A DNA stretch of 64,000 bases, taken from contig JABIFG010000118.1 in NCBI GenBank assembly GCA_018650795.1, forward strand, positions 81,731 to 145,730. Reading direction: 5' to 3'. This DNA comes from Fidelibacterota bacterium (GTDB taxonomy: Bacteria > Fidelibacterota > UBA8477 > JABMPR01). This document shows, one piece after another, positions 15,940 to 27,998 of the stretch. A model generated the notes under the pieces. The model searched no databases. It was not told the DNA's origin and saw nothing but the letters and a program-made list of their open reading frames with translations. The stretch's first letter is position 1. Each line of letters starts with the position of its first letter. Position numbers and translations under genes: made by a program.

Positions 15940-18900
15940 TTATAAATATTTGACCAAACCCCCCTGGTCTTTTTCGATTGTAAATCCAAATTTGTAGAAA
16001 TATCCAGGATGGAGAAATCCTGTAGTAATCATCTTTTTCTTAGAATTTCTCATCCGATTTACGAATTCATTCAGTAGACCTCTACTGACACCTCCGCCTC
16101 GATGATTATCGGAGACTACAACTTTATCCATATAGACAACATCTTCCCCCTGATCAAGATAGAAAAGACCACCAATAACTCTGTTCTTCTTGTTCAATGC
16201 CACCAGGAATTTATGCTCATGAGTAAAATTGACATCCATACGCGCCTTTACGAAATGCTGTTGCAACTGGATAATTTCTTTCGGATGCATAGCCCTTCGG
16301 ATCCGGAAAGCAGTACCCTTGCTATCGTGCCTGGAGATCATAATTTCTATTTCATCCATGGCAGTTGAGCGTGTGGCAATGAGTTCGATATCTTCACTGG
16401 GTGGTAGCTCAGGGAAAGCCAAGCGTTTGAGAAAAAATGAACTATACTCATCCATTTCATTTGATCCGATATATTGACTGATCTCACTTTGGAGGGTTCC
16501 ACCATCCAAGGAAAGCTGTCGAAGGTTTCGTCCGAGGAGGGTCAGGTATTCCTTCAATTTTGCATCCGTGTCTGAGAATACCGTATTCAAAAACAACTGT
16601 ACGCGTGCATCCGGGTACTCTGGCTCACTATCCTGTATATTGTAATCCCGGTACAAGTCCTTCAAAAAGTGGGCTTTAGCATTCAGTGTGGCCCCCTGGT
16701 TGATAGAGAGCCAACGATGATAGCGACGTATGGCAAAGTAGACAGAATTAGGTTGGTAGCCATCGTCCTCAACGCTATCCAGGAATCTGAGAAGATCCTT
16801 ACGTCGAGCCGATGTAATCTTTTTGTCAGCGAGTATGCCCTTAAAGAAATCTATACTGTGTTTCTGTCCCAAGGCTTCTCTTATGGCGTGGTAAACAATT
16901 TCAGTCCCGACCTTGAGCATGAATGTTGGAAATTCTTTTTCGGTAGCCCTCACAAATAAACTTTCAAGATTCTCCATAAATTCAAGACCTGATGAAACTT
17001 CGGTAATACCGGAGATAGATACCAACCTGCCACCAACATGATAATCATGGATGGGGACCACAATCTTACCAGGGCTGGGATCCGAGATCATTTTCTTAAA
17101 TCGGGTACGTTTCCAGAAGCTTGTATAGGTTAGCACAGCGGTCCATACAAAATGAGGCCAGATATGCTCAGGGGCGGGCATCTCATCAGACGAACCTGCC
17201 CAGACTGCTTGTTTCAAATATTCTCTGACTGTCAGTCCAGAAATAAATTCTTCTGACCATAGATCTTGTTGCGGTTTATAGGATCCCAGAGTTTCAACCA
17301 GTTGATTGAATTGGTTATCAACTTCGCAGGCCATGAGCCAGAATAATTCAGTATAGATCTGTTCTGAACTCAATTCATCATTCAAGTTGAGAACAAACTT
17401 ATATCTGCCTTCAATACTCTGGATGGTTACTCGATATACAGTTTTCCCGTGAGCACTGCCAAGCAAGTTAATCCATATGCCTTGTGGAGGGATACTTCGC
17501 AGAGAAAGCTGTTTGCCCTCAAAAAATAGATAGATCGACTCATTCAGTATTGAGGTATTGATAAAGGCTGAGCTAATACGCTTACGATGCTTTGCTGGGA
17601 CTGGTTTATCAAAGAGTAAAACATCTTCCCAATCCAAAGTCTGCTCGTGGTGGATTTTGGTGGTATCTGGATCCATTTCCTGCATTGATTGTGAAAAACT
17701 ATCATTCAACGCCTCGTAGGAATTCAGGATTTGTTGTGTGATTTTACCTTTTGCGGGAAGATTGACAATAGAGCTAATCATGGCTGATCTAATGGTAGAG
17801 TAATATTGGGGGAATATTTTTGACCATGAAAAAAGAACCCCCAGAACATTTTCAAACAGAATTGATGATTCCTCAGTCCGAGATTCTTGGTATGATAACC
17901 ATTTCAGGTAATTCGATGCAAGTTTGACCTTATGAATATTGATATTTGACCAAGATGAGTTGCCAGAATTAATATTGAATAGTACTTTTCTTCCCAGCGC
18001 ATAGGTGACAATTCGTTCCAGGTCATTGGCGGGGAAGAGTGCAACCACCTGTTCCACGGCGAATTGAGCTTGAACAAGATCATCAGAACGAATGAGACGC
18101 AGGAAGGCATATCGAACAATGTGTCTGATGCTTTCACTCGAATTTGAATAAATTCGGTTCAAGAGGCGGAAAGCAGCTTGAGAAGGATGTAGACTTTGTG
18201 AGTAAACTAATAATATGACCGGTTTCAACGCTTCAATTGAGTAGTCCGAATGGTTCAGGGCTTTTTCAACTTCAGCTTCAGCTTGCTGTTTGTCCTCATC
18301 GGTAATCTCCAGATCAACCCAGGTGCCTGGAAGCAGATCAGGTCTTTTGTTGACAGGCTTTATTCTTAAATGAGCATAGTCCAGAAATTCTTCCAATTCC
18401 CGATTACCAAGACAATAAGCAGGTTGACGAATGAAATCTTCAAACTGGAGAATATTGCCTTCGAATTGATAAAAAAGTGCCCCAATACGGATTTCGTTTT
18501 CCCCGGGCTCAATTCTCAAAGAATGTCGTTTATTCCTATGCTTGAGAATTCGATCTTTTATAACCAGATCATTTTGTGTCCAACCACGCTGAAGAAATAC
18601 CCAATTTGGGATTTGGATCTCCAAGCCTTCCATAAAAAATGATTTGTATGGTCGTTCATAAAGTGACTCTACAGTGGATTTAAAATGTTCCAGAATAGCG
18701 CTACGTTTAAATGTCCCTTTTTCAGTCAGCTCACCTAAATCCTTTTTGAAGTCCCGGTCGACCTGGCGGAAATCAACAATTCTTTCAAACGGAGCTAAAA
18801 ATGAATTTACAGAATGAATGACATTACCAACATAGTCTCGAACTTTTTGTCGATCTGACCAGATGCTCTTAAGATCTTTGTGTTTCTTGTTCAGCCTGAC

Positions 18901-20577
18901 GAGTGCAGTATTATAGGGCATATGATCGCCGACAATAAAGAGCTGATGGATACTCTCAAAATCTCTGAACATATTTTCGATTTTTTGTGGGGCAATAGTT
19001 TGACCCTTAGCATTTTTGTAAATTTCTTTTTTACGATCAATGATTTCGATCTGGCCATTGTCCAGGGACTGGAAGATATCCCCAGTAGTAAACCATCCAT
19101 CCGGACGTTCATCTGGCTCAGTAGGATTCCAGTAACTGCCTGATACATAGGCGCCCCGGATCCATAACTCTCCATCCTCGACCAGTTTTATTTCCATACC
19201 GGGCAGGGGAATACCTACTGAGTTTTCGATATATCCATCGGTGGGCGTCATGGTGATACCACCAGTAGCTTCAGTCATTCCATAACCACTATGCAGGTGT
19301 AAATCATAAGCCTGGAAAAACCGAAATATCTCAGGAGGTAAATATCCTGCTGCAGAGAGTCCCCAACGCAAAGCACCACCGGTCACTTCTTTCACTCCCT
19401 TAGAAATATTAGAGGACTCATCGTTCACGAGATCAACACTTGCACCAATGGTGTCATAGATGTCCTGCCAGCGTTTAGGAATGCTGATCAGCACAGTAGG
19501 TTTGATGGCTTTGAGGTCGCTGAGGAGCGATTGAATTCCTTTTCCGCTGGAGAAAGTATATTCAGCGCCCCAGAATATTGAACCCCACATTTCTAAAAAT
19601 CTACCAAAAGTGTGAAAGAGGGGCAAAAAGCAAAGAAAACGATCTTCAGTGCCCAGGTTCAGTGCCAGGCTTCGGGCAAATCTTTTGGAAATGATATTCT
19701 CATAAGTGAAAACAATACCCTTCGGATACCCTGTTGTGCCTGAAGTATACATGATACTGGCAATATTAGAGAGGGATACAGAAAGTCGTATACCTTCCAA
19801 CCAATCAAGTGCCTCGGCTGAACCACCTTCATCAATCAACCGCTTATATGATTTCACCATCGGGTTGGTCGTAGCAACACTATTGTAGGTAATGATATGC
19901 TTTATCGCTGGTAGCTTGGGAAGGATACTTTCAATGGAACGCAAATGTTGTGAGTCAGAAATGAAAATTCCCTCAATCTCAGCATGGGCGAGGATATACT
20001 CGACTTGAGCCGGGGGAGCAGCTGGTTGGATAGGAACATTCACGAAGCCATACGTTAGACAGGCGATATCTGTAATGGCAACTTCCAGACGGTTTTCAGA
20101 AAGTATGGCAATACGAGGACTGGTACTGCCCATAAGATCAATGAGTGCTGCTGCCAGGTGGTTGGCAGATTGCTGAACGGCTGACCAGGATTGTTGTTGC
20201 CACTGGCGACCCCGCTTGAAATTAAAAAGGGTTTTGTTCCCCAACTGTGCGGCCTTGCGATTAAAGAGATGACCAGGTGTGTATTTGAGTTTCCGCACCA
20301 GCTCCATTTCGAGCTGGAACCATTCATTCTGGATGTTACAGGCTTTGATAAGTGAGGTGAAAGCTGGATTCCAGCCTTGCTCTAAAAGGAAGGTCAGACT
20401 TCTTTGACTTCCAGTTCCAAGAATATGATCAGCATATTTGAGAAGATTGTTGGACCAGGTTTCCAGGTCCTGAGGTGGTTGAACCTCAAAATCTTTGAAA
20501 TATTGGACCAGTGCGGTTTCCTGCTGAACAGGGTCTACATCCACATTATCCAAGAGATCATGTAGTGAATCTTTCAA
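15940..20577 (-). CDS. Acyl-CoA synthetase (AMP-binding) / large helical region / GNAT fusion
   Basis: This is a very large 1545-residue protein. Residues ~1-100 are unassigned. Residues ~110-640 are a long-chain acyl-CoA synthetase-like adenylation domain: 'MYTSGTTGYPKG' (P-loop, near 276), 'GYGMTEATGG' (near 429), 'GDIFQSLDNGQIEIIDRKKEIYKNAKGQTIAP' (hinge and C-terminal lysine, near 525). Residues ~650-1400 are a mostly helical region I do not recognise. The last ~130 residues are a GNAT acyltransferase domain with the acyl-CoA loop 'NHRGGGVSRGLL' and an ending 'GFLHPGYFYKFGF'. No carrier-protein serine motif is seen, so it is not an NRPS. The domain order suggests that acyl-CoA made at one end may be used by the other. 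The product is unknown. It is a single uninterrupted frame. Confidence 0.85.
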   Translation of the reverse strand: MKDSLHDLLDNVDVDPVQQETALVQYFKDFEVQPPQDLETWSNNLLKYADHILGTGSQRSLTFLLEQGWNPAFTSLIKACNIQNEWFQLEMELVRKLKYTPGHLFNRKAAQLGNKTLFNFKRGRQWQQQSWSAVQQSANHLAAALIDLMGSTSPRIAILSENRLEVAITDIACLTYGFVNVPIQPAAPPAQVEYILAHAEIEGIFISDSQHLRSIESILPKLPAIKHIITYNSVATTNPMVKSYKRLIDEGGSAEALDWLEGIRLSVSLSNIASIMYTSGTTGYPKGIVFTYENIISKRFARSLALNLGTEDRFLCFLPLFHTFGRFLEMWGSIFWGAEYTFSSGKGIQSLLSDLKAIKPTVLISIPKRWQDIYDTIGASVDLVNDESSNISKGVKEVTGGALRWGLSAAGYLPPEIFRFFQAYDLHLHSGYGMTEATGGITMTPTDGYIENSVGIPLPGMEIKLVEDGELWIRGAYVSGSYWNPTEPDERPDGWFTTGDIFQSLDNGQIEIIDRKKEIYKNAKGQTIAPQKIENMFRDFESIHQLFIVGDHMPYNTALVRLNKKHKDLKSIWSDRQKVRDYVGNVIHSVNSFLAPFERIVDFRQVDRDFKKDLGELTEKGTFKRSAILEHFKSTVESLYERPYKSFFMEGLEIQIPNWVFLQRGWTQNDLVIKDRILKHRNKRHSLRIEPGENEIRIGALFYQFEGNILQFEDFIRQPAYCLGNRELEEFLDYAHLRIKPVNKRPDLLPGTWVDLEITDEDKQQAEAEVEKALNHSDYSIEALKPVILLVYSQSLHPSQAAFRLLNRIYSNSSESIRHIVRYAFLRLIRSDDLVQAQFAVEQVVALFPANDLERIVTYALGRKVLFNINSGNSSWSNINIHKVKLASNYLKWLSYQESRTEESSILFENVLGVLFSWSKIFPQYYSTIRSAMISSIVNLPAKGKITQQILNSYEALNDSFSQSMQEMDPDTTKIHHEQTLDWEDVLLFDKPVPAKHRKRISSAFINTSILNESIYLFFEGKQLSLRSIPPQGIWINLLGSAHGKTVYRVTIQSIEGRYKFVLNLNDELSSEQIYTELFWLMACEVDNQFNQLVETLGSYKPQQDLWSEEFISGLTVREYLKQAVWAGSSDEMPAPEHIWPHFVWTAVLTYTSFWKRTRFKKMISDPSPGKIVVPIHDYHVGGRLVSISGITEVSSGLEFMENLESLFVRATEKEFPTFMLKVGTEIVYHAIREALGQKHSIDFFKGILADKKITSARRKDLLRFLDSVEDDGYQPNSVYFAIRRYHRWLSINQGATLNAKAHFLKDLYRDYNIQDSEPEYPDARVQLFLNTVFSDTDAKLKEYLTLLGRNLRQLSLDGGTLQSEISQYIGSNEMDEYSSFFLKRLAFPELPPSEDIELIATRSTAMDEIEIMISRHDSKGTAFRIRRAMHPKEIIQLQQHFVKARMDVNFTHEHKFLVALNKKNRVIGGLFYLDQGEDVVYMDKVVVSDNHRGGGVSRGLLNEFVNRMRNSKKKMITTGFLHPGYFYKFGFTIEKDQGGLVKYL

Positions 20578-22447: not shown

Positions 22448-24271
22448 TTAAGCCTCTGTGGGCACTTCCTTGCTGATTTTAGCTTTAAAATTTGTATAAA
22501 TCTCTTCCAAGCGCTGCCCCTGTTTCTCAATCGCTTCACTTAGTGAAGGAAGATTTTCACCAGGGTAGGAATGCCCCTTGGCGATGGTTTTGCAATATTC
22601 AAAACCCCTGGTCATATTGTCATAGAAAGCATGTAGAGAAGGATATTCTTTAGGTCCCATGGTATCTTGAATACGAGTACGAAAGTGATCGACATAGAGC
22701 TGAATTTCTTTAGCAAACATATGCGGACGATCGGAAGAAAGCAATTCTTTACCACGGCCATAGATCTGATCTACCAATTCTTCCAGAGAATAATTCCGGG
22801 TAAACCATGAGAGATTTGGTCCAGGACAAATAGCCTGTGGCGATCGCTTTGCGGGAACGATTCCCAGACTGATGAGAGCTCCATTACCCAGATGCTCACA
22901 TAGACATGTTTTGGCTAATACGTTATTGATCGCTGTTTCTTTTTCAGATCCAGGCTCAATAGTCGATTCAATTTCTGCCAGTTTGTGAGTCATATATTCC
23001 GAAGAGGCTGTACAAATTGGTAGCTCTGTAAACTCAGTATTGGAAACAAGGAATCCCTTGGGGCATGCTGAACCAGGTTTTCCCTGGAGGTACCGTTTCT
23101 TGGACCATTTTTCAGAGCCAGAATCCTTTAAATTGTTGAAAGGAACTCCCAGGGGAGATGCACCACTCAAATAGAGACTGTCATCAGTAGAATTCATGAG
23201 CTGCATACGTGTTACTGTATCAATGGGCGTGGCTTCCGGTACCAACAGAAAAGGACTGGCCCATCCAGTGCGATCCATACCAAAATCTTTTTCTAATCTC
23301 TGGGCCTCACCATTATTACCAATGCCACCCTGAACAGTAATCTCAGGGTGATGTTCAAGGTTCTCCGGGTAGCTCCACCCCATTTTATCGTAGAAGCGTT
23401 TGATAATAGGCTGGAATTGTGTGCCTAATTCAGCACGTTTATCCTTGAAATCCTGGAGTAGGATAGGTAATAAATGACCTGGAGATGCAAAGGCGTGACC
23501 TCCACAATTCAATCCAGATTCAATTCTAAATTCTGATATTTCCAAGCCCTTCTTCGCCATATAGCGACCTTGAATCATGGCGGATCTAAAATCACTGACT
23601 TTCAGGATGATCTTCTTCTTAATCTCACCTTGCTGGTCACGATAAAAATCTTGATACTTTGTCATGTAACCATACAAACTTTGATTGATTCCAGCAGAAA
23701 AAACCATAGCTGAATCAAGCTTGCTTTTCGCAAACCCTCGTAGGGCAGCTTTTGCATCTGAAAAACCTTCACCCATGGGTTTGCCATGTTTATCCATATC
23801 AATACGATCCACTTTGACCATAATATTGACATCGATTCCACCTGGTTGCATTCTATGCGATAACTCTTTGGAAATCTTATCGCGTAATTCGCCTGGTTTT
23901 GTGGCCATGAGATCGTGATAAGCCTTTTTAAGCGTACTTGTATCAGGCAGCAGTTCGAAGTAGCGAGTTTTTTCATTTTTCTCAAAAAATGGGAGAGAAC
24001 GGACGTGATCCATCTTCATCTCAACGATATCATGGACCATGTCCAAATAGGCTGTAATGCGCTTGGCACGACCATCCTCTTCACGGGCAGAGATACGTTC
24101 AAACGGTAAATCATATTTTGAGGTGTAAAATTTCCTTAAACGTTCCAACAAAATATCATCAATAATAGATATGACTGAAGTGATTCCTAAATGGGCCAGG
24201 CGTATAGGTGTGTCGATTGAATGGCCAGTTCCCATTACGGGTATATGAAAATTATGTGTTGTATCTGTCAC
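22448..24271 (-). CDS. Conserved-looking 607-aa protein of unknown function, cysteine-rich C-half
   Basis: I do not recognise a named family. The N-terminal part begins 'FHIPVMGTGHSIDTPIRLAHLGITSVISIIDD', which reads like a barrel enzyme entrance strand, and the middle has 'SGLNCGGHAFASPGHLLPILLQDF' and 'EITVQGGIGNNGEAQRLEKDFGMDRTGWASPFLLVPEATPID', whose glycine pattern recalls FMN/TIM-barrel enzymes such as nitronate monooxygenase or enoyl reductase. The second half has clustered cysteines: 'ACPKGF', 'PICTASSEY', 'KTCLCEHLGNGAL', 'AICPGPN', which could ligate a metal or Fe-S cluster. No signal peptide, so cytoplasmic. It stands alone with its own terminator. An oxidoreductase is my guess only. 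Confidence 0.7.
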   Translation of the reverse strand: MTDTTHNFHIPVMGTGHSIDTPIRLAHLGITSVISIIDDILLERLRKFYTSKYDLPFERISAREEDGRAKRITAYLDMVHDIVEMKMDHVRSLPFFEKNEKTRYFELLPDTSTLKKAYHDLMATKPGELRDKISKELSHRMQPGGIDVNIMVKVDRIDMDKHGKPMGEGFSDAKAALRGFAKSKLDSAMVFSAGINQSLYGYMTKYQDFYRDQQGEIKKKIILKVSDFRSAMIQGRYMAKKGLEISEFRIESGLNCGGHAFASPGHLLPILLQDFKDKRAELGTQFQPIIKRFYDKMGWSYPENLEHHPEITVQGGIGNNGEAQRLEKDFGMDRTGWASPFLLVPEATPIDTVTRMQLMNSTDDSLYLSGASPLGVPFNNLKDSGSEKWSKKRYLQGKPGSACPKGFLVSNTEFTELPICTASSEYMTHKLAEIESTIEPGSEKETAINNVLAKTCLCEHLGNGALISLGIVPAKRSPQAICPGPNLSWFTRNYSLEELVDQIYGRGKELLSSDRPHMFAKEIQLYVDHFRTRIQDTMGPKEYPSLHAFYDNMTRGFEYCKTIAKGHSYPGENLPSLSEAIEKQGQRLEEIYTNFKAKISKEVPTEA

Positions 24272-24502: not shown

Positions 24503-24955
24503 TTAGAAAAAGTATCTAATTCCGAAGCCACCACCAAAACTAAAACCACCACCGCCAAGGATTTTCAGCGTAGGAGTACTTTCGATGAAAATATCTACAG
24601 GATATGATGAAAGATAGTAACTGATTCCAATCACACCGCGAACACCTAGATCAAACTCTGTCGTTTCTTCAAGATCATCGTTTAAGTCTGTGTGAGTTCC
24701 CAGGGTCATGCCGGCTCCGTAATATACTGGGGTAGCATTGTCTGTGATCTTTAGCAGATCTGGCATATCAAATAAGTAATCGGCCGCCAGTGCGCTTCCA
24801 AAATTCCAATGAACAGCTATGGCATTCGTACCATTCATCCAGTATTTCCCGGTTAGTCCATCAGTCGACAAGCCAATTCCGATACCAGAATTTTGTCCAA
24901 ATGCAGCGGTTGCAATCAGCAAAACAGTGAATAATGAAATAAGACTTTTGCGCAT
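24503..24955 (-). CDS. Small outer-membrane beta-barrel-like protein
   Basis: The track start at 25075 lies inside the neighbouring gene; the ATG at 24955 has AGGAGG upstream and gives a clean signal peptide (MRKSLISLFTVLLIATAAFGQ). The 150-residue product has alternating hydrophobic strands, glycine-rich turns ('LGGGGFSFGGGFGIRYFF') and a terminal aromatic residue, the classical C-terminal signal of outer-membrane barrels. It is predicted to be a small 6-8 strand barrel in the outer membrane. Downstream of the 991-aa gene on the same strand but with its own ribosome-binding site and terminator. Role unknown. Confidence 0.72.
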   Translation of the reverse strand: MRKSLISLFTVLLIATAAFGQNSGIGIGLSTDGLTGKYWMNGTNAIAVHWNFGSALAADYLFDMPDLLKITDNATPVYYGAGMTLGTHTDLNDDLEETTEFDLGVRGVIGISYYLSSYPVDIFIESTPTLKILGGGGFSFGGGFGIRYFF

Positions 24956-25022
24956 GTTAACATCTCCTCCTTGGTTGGCTTCAAACATAAAATATTTTAG
25001 AGAATACTCAATGCAGAAGTTA

Positions 25023-27998
25023 TCAACCTTCTGCCTCGGATATACCACAACCAGGTCTCCAGATATGTCCTTCACCCTTCACCCCGTCAACTTGAATAAT
25101 AAAGGGCTGTTCAAAATGAAAGTGTTTGAGGTAGGTCGTTTCGTTAGTGCACTCTTGATTTTTGAACCAATCCAGATTCATATTTTCTTTTAATTGTCGA
25201 GGGGGTATCGTAAAGTAGCTGATCCCCAGAGATGTGATATTTTGAAAAAAGTGGCTTCCAAAGGATGGTTCCACGTATAAATCAGGTAAACCCACCTCCA
25301 CAATGGATCTAGCGTTGGAAATAAAATTCCATGTAACCGGGATTCCCAATAGGGGGTCTGCTGTTCCCCAGCGTCCCGGACCCACTAATAAATAGGGTTT
25401 CTCAGAACTGAATTCCCGATTCATGTCGCGTATTTCCTGAGCGATTTGTTGACTTTTTAAAATGTCAAACTTATCAATGTCGATATACACTAAATCATGA
25501 ATCTCGATATTGTCACCGTTGCCAAGGCAGATCTCACTTTTAAATAGTTCATCCTTTTTCTCAGCATGAGTGACGTCAACCACATGGGGACGTTCAAATG
25601 TGACCATGGGTCTAATCTGTAGAATGGACAATTCAGCTGGATCCCCAGATTTTTTCGGAAGATTTACAGCAAACTCCATTTCCACTTCACAGCCCATACC
25701 TAACTTACCAAATTCCATTAAATCACTGAGCATATCAGCAAGGGGGAAAGATTTCCACTTCAAGATGTTGGAAAAGGTGATAATGCGGGGGCCTTGCTCA
25801 AACAGGGATTCACGAAATCGTCTATCCTGGAATGAATACACGCTAGCTATGTGATCAAGGCTCCCATGCTCCTCAGCAACTTTTAGATCGAGTTGAACCA
25901 GATTCGAACTTTCACCATTCTCCAGAGGTAATTCACAGTGCGTTGTATCCAGGGCGTAAAAGTGATTCTGACTATTCTTAAGAATAGATTTCTCATCAAA
26001 AAATTGGGGAAAAACGTTGGGTCTCCTGGGACTGAATTTAAGTGCTTTTTCACCATTCACGACGGTACGACCCAGACCCAAAGCCATTGTGGCCATACCC
26101 TCTTCTCGTTTCATGGCACCCTGTGGATAGTAGTTAAGAGTTTGCAGCACACCAGAAAAGCTGGGGTAATAATAGTCATCATGCTTGCGACCGCTGAGGT
26201 GTTGAATCACCACGGCCATTTTTTCGTCCTCCGGGCGGTTACCGGTTGATTTAAGGTAGGCGATAGCCTCTCGGTGGAATCCTGAAGCGTAAACAAGTTT
26301 GATAGCTTCCAGAAGTTGAAATACACGTGTGTCCAGGGCCGGAGCACAATTAGGAAGCATATACGTGCTATATATTCCAGCAAAAGGCTGGAAGAGTGAA
26401 TCCTCTAACAAACTTGATGATCTTACCGCCAGGGGACCTGCATGGTGTCCCAGATAGGAATGTAGTTGGTCAGCGAAGTTTCCCGGGAATACAGCTTTTC
26501 GAAATAGTTCATCTATCTCTTCATTGGTTCCAACTTCAAGAGCTTTTACACTCAATTTATTGATATCCAGAAATCGATCGTAAATATCGGTTGCCACGAC
26601 CGCAAATTGTGGGACATCGACCACCAGGTCTGAGTATTTCTGTGAAAAATCAAATCGGCGTTTGTGGGCCGTGAGAAATGCCAGACCTCTTGCTTTGCCA
26701 CCAATTGACCCTCCACCAATACGCACGGCTGCAATCGTCGGGTCGTAGGTGTCGATATCAAAGTATCCAACATTGTCAAAATGCTGAAGGACGAGTTGTC
26801 GTTCGATTGCATCCAGGAGAATCTTGCGAAAGTCTTCAGGGTTTTCAAAATCTTCAATATTAACAGGTTTAAGAAAGTCAGCCAGATCGAAGTAACCGCG
26901 AACTGCCAACCAATTTGAGAAATGATCCCGACGTGCATGATATTCGATACTTTGAATGGGAACTGACTCCAGTGCAGCTTTGAGAGCATTCAAATGACGG
27001 ATTTTTGTTATGGTTTTACCTTCGCGAGTACTGAATACCAGATCACCAAAACCACAATGCTTGATGACAAAATCCTGCAGGCTCTTAAGAAGTTGAGGTG
27101 AGTATTTTGCAATGAAGTAAGCCCCTAATTTCTTGGCAGTTTCTTCATTGCTACCTTCCATGGATTGCATGATAATGGGCATGCTGGGATTTTTTTTCAG
27201 AACAATTTTTATAAACGCGGCTCCGGCCTTAGGATCAAGTTTCCCCTTCCTGGGATATCTCACATCAGAGATTACAGCGAGAAGATTATTTTTGTACAGC
27301 TTGTACAACTCATTGGCTTCCTCAAAAGTGGATGCCAGCAGGATCTTTGGTCTAGAACGCATCCTGAACAGACGAAGCTCATCGGTGTACTCATGCTTCA
27401 TCAATTTCTGAGTGGTATTGATTATCACGCTGTATAACATGGGCAAAAAAATGGAATAATATTTTGGTGAGTCTTCCACCACAATGATGGCTCTGGCGCC
27501 ACCCTTAAGAATGTCTCGTGGTGCATTCATGTGGTCTTCGATATACTTTACAATCGTGGTGAAGATATTCGAGTCCCCATGCCAGATAAAGGTCTTATCA
27601 ATACCGTCAAGGTTAGCAACCCTCTGTGTAGCCCAAGTATATTCGCGACGATTTGAAGCCAGCATAATCACGGGAATGGATTCATGTTTCTTTTTAATCT
27701 TTCGCCCAAGCTCAAAAGGGTTCATATCTGAGATTCGAGTCATGGTTATAACCAGGTCATAATGTCTGGCTCGTAATCTTCTAAGAGCGTGATCGCCAGT
27801 AGACACTCTGGTAATCCGGGGAGCACTACTCAGGTTCATATCCTGGTACTCAGTGAAAATCATTTCACCAATACGCCCATCCTCTTCTAATTTGAAAGCG
27901 TCATAAAGGCTGGAGATCAATAAAATTTCATGAACCCGATGCTGCATCATGTCCCTGAAACCGGGGCGTTGTTTAAGTGTGAGAACCTGTTTAAACAT
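25023..27998 (-). CDS. Receiver-domain protein fused to a PEP synthase/PPDK N-terminal ATP-grasp domain
   Basis: 991 residues. Residues ~25-150 look like a receiver domain whose acceptor Asp is lost ('YDLVITMTRISDMNPFEL'). Residues ~165-320 look like a second, probably working receiver ('AIIVVEDSPKY', acceptor in 'LAVISDVRYPRKG', then 'MPIIMQSMEGS'). Residues ~430-790 are a pyruvate-phosphate-dikinase/PEP-synthase nucleotide-binding domain ('GGGSIGGKARGLAFL', 'PLAVRSSSLLEDSLFQPFAGIYSTY', 'LQIRPMVTF'). The phosphohistidine swivel domain and PEP/pyruvate barrel of true PpsA are not seen; instead a ~150-residue tail with 'YLLVGPGRWGTADPLLGIPVTW' follows. It is likely a phosphotransfer enzyme switched by two-component signalling, cytoplasmic, substrate unknown. 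Confidence 0.85.
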   Translation of the reverse strand: MFKQVLTLKQRPGFRDMMQHRVHEILLISSLYDAFKLEEDGRIGEMIFTEYQDMNLSSAPRITRVSTGDHALRRLRARHYDLVITMTRISDMNPFELGRKIKKKHESIPVIMLASNRREYTWATQRVANLDGIDKTFIWHGDSNIFTTIVKYIEDHMNAPRDILKGGARAIIVVEDSPKYYSIFLPMLYSVIINTTQKLMKHEYTDELRLFRMRSRPKILLASTFEEANELYKLYKNNLLAVISDVRYPRKGKLDPKAGAAFIKIVLKKNPSMPIIMQSMEGSNEETAKKLGAYFIAKYSPQLLKSLQDFVIKHCGFGDLVFSTREGKTITKIRHLNALKAALESVPIQSIEYHARRDHFSNWLAVRGYFDLADFLKPVNIEDFENPEDFRKILLDAIERQLVLQHFDNVGYFDIDTYDPTIAAVRIGGGSIGGKARGLAFLTAHKRRFDFSQKYSDLVVDVPQFAVVATDIYDRFLDINKLSVKALEVGTNEEIDELFRKAVFPGNFADQLHSYLGHHAGPLAVRSSSLLEDSLFQPFAGIYSTYMLPNCAPALDTRVFQLLEAIKLVYASGFHREAIAYLKSTGNRPEDEKMAVVIQHLSGRKHDDYYYPSFSGVLQTLNYYPQGAMKREEGMATMALGLGRTVVNGEKALKFSPRRPNVFPQFFDEKSILKNSQNHFYALDTTHCELPLENGESSNLVQLDLKVAEEHGSLDHIASVYSFQDRRFRESLFEQGPRIITFSNILKWKSFPLADMLSDLMEFGKLGMGCEVEMEFAVNLPKKSGDPAELSILQIRPMVTFERPHVVDVTHAEKKDELFKSEICLGNGDNIEIHDLVYIDIDKFDILKSQQIAQEIRDMNREFSSEKPYLLVGPGRWGTADPLLGIPVTWNFISNARSIVEVGLPDLYVEPSFGSHFFQNITSLGISYFTIPPRQLKENMNLDWFKNQECTNETTYLKHFHFEQPFIIQVDGVKGEGHIWRPGCGISEAEG

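Follow-up and report, generated by a model that had tools for sequence, protein, structure and literature searches.

A conserved 607-residue protein of the Neomarinimicrobiota as a probable remote relative of the flavin enzyme FabX

The 607-residue protein encoded on the minus strand of a 64,000-nucleotide stretch of DNA from a Fidelibacterota bacterium (the window) is probably a distant, as yet unnamed relation of the FabX-type flavin enzymes, that is, an FMN TIM-barrel oxidoreductase extended by a C-terminal redox domain, most likely of the [4Fe-4S] type. Judged from profile alignments, membership of the NMO/FabK/FabX superfamily is very probable and the binding of FMN highly likely; that the protein also holds an Fe-S cluster is reasonably likely.

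A first-pass annotation had placed a 607-aa open reading frame at 22448-24271, and the frame there is indeed uninterrupted on the minus strand, while the plus-strand frame within the same positions contains many stops. The genome belongs to Candidatus Neomarinimicrobiota, the name carried by its nearest relatives in a scan of a genome collection with exact peptides of the window. Of 149 genomes of this phylum 34 have a homolog, at identities of ~43-91%, and comparison of the gene with its nearest relative gives dN 0.054 versus dS 1.70. Both motifs quoted in that annotation, CGGHAF (residues 256-261) and VQGGIGNNGEA (residues 313-323), are present in the translation, and its observation that cysteines cluster in the second half holds as well, five of the seven (256, 403, 420, 456, 458, 482 and 560) lying within residues 403-482. 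Across 18 diverse members, drawn from seven of the phylum's families, ~110 columns are invariant, among them G257, G258 and H259 of CGGHAF, Q314, G315, G316 and G318 of VQGGIG, and every cysteine but the last (C256, C403, C420, C456, C458 and C482). The reading frame is thus a real gene, strongly conserved and constrained, and more than a product of chance, given its homologs, a dN far below dS, and the invariance of the motif letters and of six cysteines. Conservation peaks in residues 6-52 and 144-345 and is lower in residues 53-143 and 510-607; no obvious signal peptide is seen in the sequence. One homolog (L005/L024, a single gene of genome G009) has a TGA ~18 codons short of the usual end; the other complete homologs are intact and have no such TGA. 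A search for relatives on plasmids, phages and viral contigs found none, and similar hypothetical proteins are presumably present in Bacteroidota. The features of the gene and protein are as follows.

22448..24271, minus strand: gene of the 607-aa protein, with its stop codon at 22448-22450 and a GTG start at 24269-24271; the start region is kept in relatives.
24116..24256, minus strand: residues 6-52, predicted beta1-beta2, 'HIPVMGTGHSID...GITSVISI', aligned with FabX 'PIFQGGMGVGIS...GALGVISA' (segment alignment p 0.009); model strands 7-9 and 31-35.
23843..24115, minus strand: residues 53-143, helical insert between beta2 and beta3 with no FabX counterpart; helices in the model; conservation 0.56 versus 0.69-0.75 in the barrel.
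23237..23842, minus strand: residues 144-345, predicted beta3-beta8 of the FMN TIM barrel (hhalign P 7.6e-8 and 3.7e-8), with 59 invariant columns.
23495..23521, minus strand: ESGLNCGGH (251-259), putative active-site motif; H259 aligns with FabX H182 and C256 with S179, a flavin contact.
23318..23332, minus strand: QGGIG (314-318), putative flavin-phosphate loop, aligned with FabX AGGIW (G220, G221).
23249..23266, minus strand: GWASPF (336-341), aligned with FabX QMATRF; A/G338 corresponds to A242 and S/T339 to T243, and G336 replaces Q240.
23138..23158, minus strand: SPLGVPF (372-378), aligned with the 'SPVGxPxRAI' loop of the FabX-type subgroup.
22826..23065, minus strand: cysteine region from C403, C420, C456 and C458 (putative [4Fe-4S] ligands) to C482, invariant in 18 members and aligned with the FabX cluster domain.
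22757..22834, minus strand: residues 480-505, 'AICPGPNLSWFTRNYSLEELVDQIYG', aligned with FabX 'LYFTGANGYRVDKIISVHELIKEL'; C482 corresponds to F339 and G484 to G341, both flavin contacts (segment p 0.005).
22451..22744, minus strand: residues 510-607, helical C-terminal tail with no FabX counterpart, the least conserved part.

The evidence for the superfamily comes from profile-profile comparison, which the first-pass annotation had proposed as a check for a TIM barrel and which returned a match to the FMN barrels of NMO/FabK/FabX. When the family alignment A2 was compared by hhalign with 27 NMO/FabX proteins taken from the same phylum, the score was 69 (P 3.7e-8 over 234 columns), and a rerun with the separate alignment A4 gave P 7.6e-8 over 270 columns, covering residues 140-504. 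Scores of the family profile against NMO/FabX are thus 67-69, against 18-36 for the controls: the reversed template scores 18, 60 column shuffles reach at most 25 and 60 block shuffles (15-column pieces kept whole) at most 36, and IMPDH and DHOD score 20 and 23, though both share the generic phosphate-binding barrel. As a yardstick from the same run, NMO and IMPDH, whose relationship is accepted, give a score of 66 with each other. Within the NMO proteins those with a C-terminal cysteine motif score 47 and plain NMOs 28; the best-scoring subgroup is FabX-like, its members being NMO proteins that bear a [4Fe-4S] domain at the C-terminus. The closest solved chain to a member of this cysteine-bearing subgroup (L054) is 9lt5/7e1q, labeled '2-nitropropane dioxygenase', which we identify as H. 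pylori FabX (HP0773) on the grounds that the residues published for FabX, namely those at the flavin, the catalytic His and the four cluster cysteines, fit the letters of the chain. The match to FabX is colinear, running through VNIM (beta-3), CGGHAF, VQGGIG, SPLGVP, the first cluster cysteine and ICPGPN, and the N- and C-terminal segments, when aligned separately, fall in the expected places, each alignment being weak.

Searches with the protein alone give a different picture, and here the earlier statement that no family can be named holds true: Pfam and NCBIfam yield no match up to E 5, PHROGs only a chance match (E 0.18), and the PDB sequences nothing up to E 10. None of 18 diverse members matches PF03060 (NMO), and Pfam and NCBIfam are likewise uninformative for them; in a scan of the protein's own genome PF03060 matches at other loci only, the 607-aa protein staying below the gathering cut-off, and TIGR03151 (FabK) does not match the protein. 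Matches to apolipoproteins, the only ones obtained when the family profile was run against the PDB by hmmsearch, were rejected as an artefact of the amphipathic-helix C-terminal tail, an artefact that recurs in Pfam. A clear match to a characterised enzyme, which would have told against an enzyme not yet described, thus does not emerge by sequence search and appears in remote profile comparison only. Of the proposal of an enzyme not yet described there survives the lack of a family by sequence search; the fold is probably no orphan, and the protein probably a far relative of the characterised FabX.

Structure prediction, also proposed earlier for the TIM barrel, gave a mixed outcome. The AF2 models were built from a shallow alignment and have a pLDDT of 39.6 at full length and of 47 for residues 1-510 (pTM 0.46), too low to identify a fold, and Foldseek returned no match at E<=0.001. 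The low-confidence model of residues 1-510 nevertheless places strands at 7-9, 31-35, 147-151, 188-192, 221-225, 247-250, 312-314 and 334-336 with helices between them, an eight-strand beta/alpha order whose positions are those expected from the FabX alignment; the strand order lends mild support to a barrel fold.

In FabX the FMN is contacted by N99, E175, S179, G180, G220, G221, Q240, A242, T243 and F339-G341, the catalytic residue is H182, and the cluster ligands are C300, C304, C308 and C320 (PMC8626469). In the alignment N149 corresponds to N99 and G315/G316 to G220/G221, CGGHAF falls on the active-site SGGH of FabX with H259 on the catalytic His, SPLGVP falls on SPVGYP and ICPGPN on the flavin-contacting YFTGAN. 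Counting against the assignment, E251 is one residue off E175, and Q240 is replaced by a glycine (G336) that is invariant in the family. C403 aligns with C300, and in the full alignment C456 coincides with the final cluster cysteine of FabX-type proteins; the spacing C403-X16-C420-X35-C456-X-C458 does not match the CX3CX3CX11C of FabX, and because of this spacing the protein is not a member of FabX proper. It is set apart from FabX and probably shares its working principle. The earlier suggestion of a metal- or flavin-dependent enzyme is therefore largely right: a flavin barrel is supported by the profile match, with the histidine, the phosphate loop and the flavin contacts in register, and a metal site is plausible from the alignment with the FabX domain and the six invariant cysteines.

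On this reading the FMN barrel would comprise residues ~6-52 and 144-345 and the redox domain residues ~346-505, with the helical insert and tail as additions of the protein's own. The substrate, probably an acyl thioester (of ACP or CoA), would enter over the flavin; by descent from FabX such a substrate is the best guess, held tentatively. H259 would shift a proton, the part played by H182 in FabX, and FMN would trade two electrons, singly, with a cluster whose ligands are likely C403, C420, C456 and C458. C256 and C482 would lie beside the flavin, where we infer that they may be near each other or redox-active, and they may tune the flavin or serve as thiols.

Because FabX makes unsaturated fatty acids, it was asked which genomes carry which route to them. 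Of the 149 genomes, 34 have the 607-aa protein, 47 a strong FabA, 20 a FabX-like protein and 42 a desaturase. FabA and the 607-aa protein are found together in none (p 0.002 by genus, 0.005 by family), and FabX and the 607-aa protein together in one genome only. The absence from FabA genomes hints at unsaturated-fatty-acid synthesis, a hint that is lost in a tree-aware test: on a protein tree of 59 genomes the exclusion is not significant, with 6 changes and about one informative independent pair, and as proof of function it was dropped. A single FabX-like gene was found in the genus of the window (L054/L079, G037:C61:5577-6641). It shares 80% identity with a gene of another family (G030) and 70% with a further one (G060), and reflects either a transfer of recent date or contamination of that MAG by a foreign contig.

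These distributions bear on the possibility that the protein simply functions as FabX, dehydrogenating acyl-ACP to the trans-2 form and isomerising it to cis-3, so as to supply unsaturated fatty acids in lineages lacking FabA. Such a role is possible and on balance doubtful. It draws on the homology to FabX, on the lack of overlap between the FabA genomes and those with the protein (and the single overlap with FabX), and on a Neisseria FabX homolog reported, as cited in PMC11300592, to be essential for anaerobic unsaturated-acyl synthesis; it is opposed by the result of the tree test, by the 29 genomes, among 126 with a completeness of 85% or more, in which FabA, FabX, the 607-aa protein and a desaturase are all missing, and by sister genomes that lack the 607-aa protein and any substitute route as well.

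Alternatively, the enzyme might run in the reducing direction as a FabK- or PfaD-like enoyl-thioester reductase that takes ferredoxin electrons via the cluster, which seems unlikely. The superfamily is the same, E. coli-type FabI (E<=1e-30, in a search for which the phylum offered no positive control) and FabV were not found in the genomes bearing the protein, and the searched genomes of f2, together with one of f3, show no match of NMO/FabK size. However, two genomes have a short-chain dehydrogenase next to fabA that may be a divergent FabI, TIGR02814 (PfaD) has no match in the protein's own genome (G000), and the 607-aa protein lacks the universal distribution to be expected of an enoyl reductase.

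A flavin barrel that lacks an Fe-S cluster and uses its cysteines for zinc binding or structural disulfides is likewise an improbable arrangement. The FabX ligand spacing is lost, and C403 and C456 (or C420) are the sole cysteines to align with ligands of FabX, as this arrangement would have it; the equivalent domain of the nearest relatives, however, carries a [4Fe-4S] cluster (PMC8626469), and anaerobic-type genes lie nearby in the window (a 2-oxoacid:ferredoxin oxidoreductase subunit). A further speculative reading is a separate FMN/[4Fe-4S] class with two flavin-flanking cysteines (C256 and C482) and a new ligand set, which would catalyse O2-independent acyl-thioester desaturation (or another reaction), pass electrons to ferredoxin, and replace FabA in part of the phylum. 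That the protein is unrelated to NMO, its profile match being a coincidence of glycine-rich loops, is very improbable despite the lack of a direct sequence match and the weak AF2 model, since the scores lie far above the controls, including other phosphate-binding barrels that share these glycine loops, and three separate segments are colinear.

The gene neighborhood, put forward earlier as a guide to function, disappointed in that no partner points to a substrate. In the window's own genus a gene for a REC-PPDK_N protein lies upstream and glutamate dehydrogenase downstream, and in other families of the phylum the homolog has unrelated neighbors. A functional link to the REC-PPDK_N gene was considered and set aside as not specific: the 991-aa protein at 25023-27998 (minus strand), with response-regulator and PPDK_N (PEP synthase-like) domains, is matched in 122 of 149 genomes at E<=0.001, mostly at full length. 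At 24503-25075 (minus strand) lies a small protein that has no Pfam match and whose internal start resembles a signal peptide (MRKSLISLFTVLLIATAAFGQ); it is conserved next to the 607-aa protein gene in several genomes of the genus. Further off, at 15940-20577 (minus strand), a 1545-aa protein has an N-terminal AMP-binding acyl-ligase and a C-terminal GNAT acetyltransferase with ~800 residues between them that match no Pfam family. In the gene tree the family of the window falls with families f14 and f18 and not with its order-mate f2, and the gene may therefore move between lineages.

If the FabX-branch reading is true, this second and strongly diverged branch, its cysteines rearranged, would show how the FabX electron relay can be rebuilt, and a conserved, uncatalogued protein of uncultured marine bacteria would gain a name and a testable reaction; it might also explain how unsaturated membrane lipids are made without O2 in lineages lacking FabA. 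FabX was described in 2021 as the sole enzyme of the NMO family then characterised that carries an iron-sulfur cluster (PMC8626469). A 469-aa NMO-like protein of genome G044 (L104) has a four-cysteine motif of its own, CKGCLAGC...YCI, with longer spacing, and is a possible cluster-bearing NMO variant.

Of the known enzymes, IMPDH and dihydroorotate dehydrogenase would have the generic phosphate-binding TIM barrel in common with the 607-aa protein, and their profile scores (20 and 23) are at control level. PfaD/PksE enzymes are long, of NMO type, and have an SGGH motif; TIGR02814, as stated above, has no match in the protein's own genome. NMO and FabK (PF03060, TIGR03151) have the GGH motif, the AGGI phosphate loop and, as predicted, the superfamily barrel in common with the 607-aa protein, and differ in having no cysteine domain such as it carries. 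The nearest known system is FabX (H. pylori HP0773; 7e1q, 9lt5), an NMO-family dehydrogenase/isomerase with a [4Fe-4S] cluster, which shares the order of elements, the catalytic His (H182, here H259), the residues at the FMN contacts N99, G220-221 and A242/T243, the SPxGxP loop, the position of the first cluster cysteine, and an 'FTGAN'-like flavin contact followed by 'SVxEL'. The two differ in length (363 aa in FabX, about 607 aa here), the insert 53-143 and tail 510-607 being confined to the 607-aa protein; in the cysteine set, C300-C304-C308-C320 in FabX versus C403-C420-C456-C458; and in the cysteines that the 607-aa protein has at the positions of FabX S179 and F339, all without similarity at the BLAST level.
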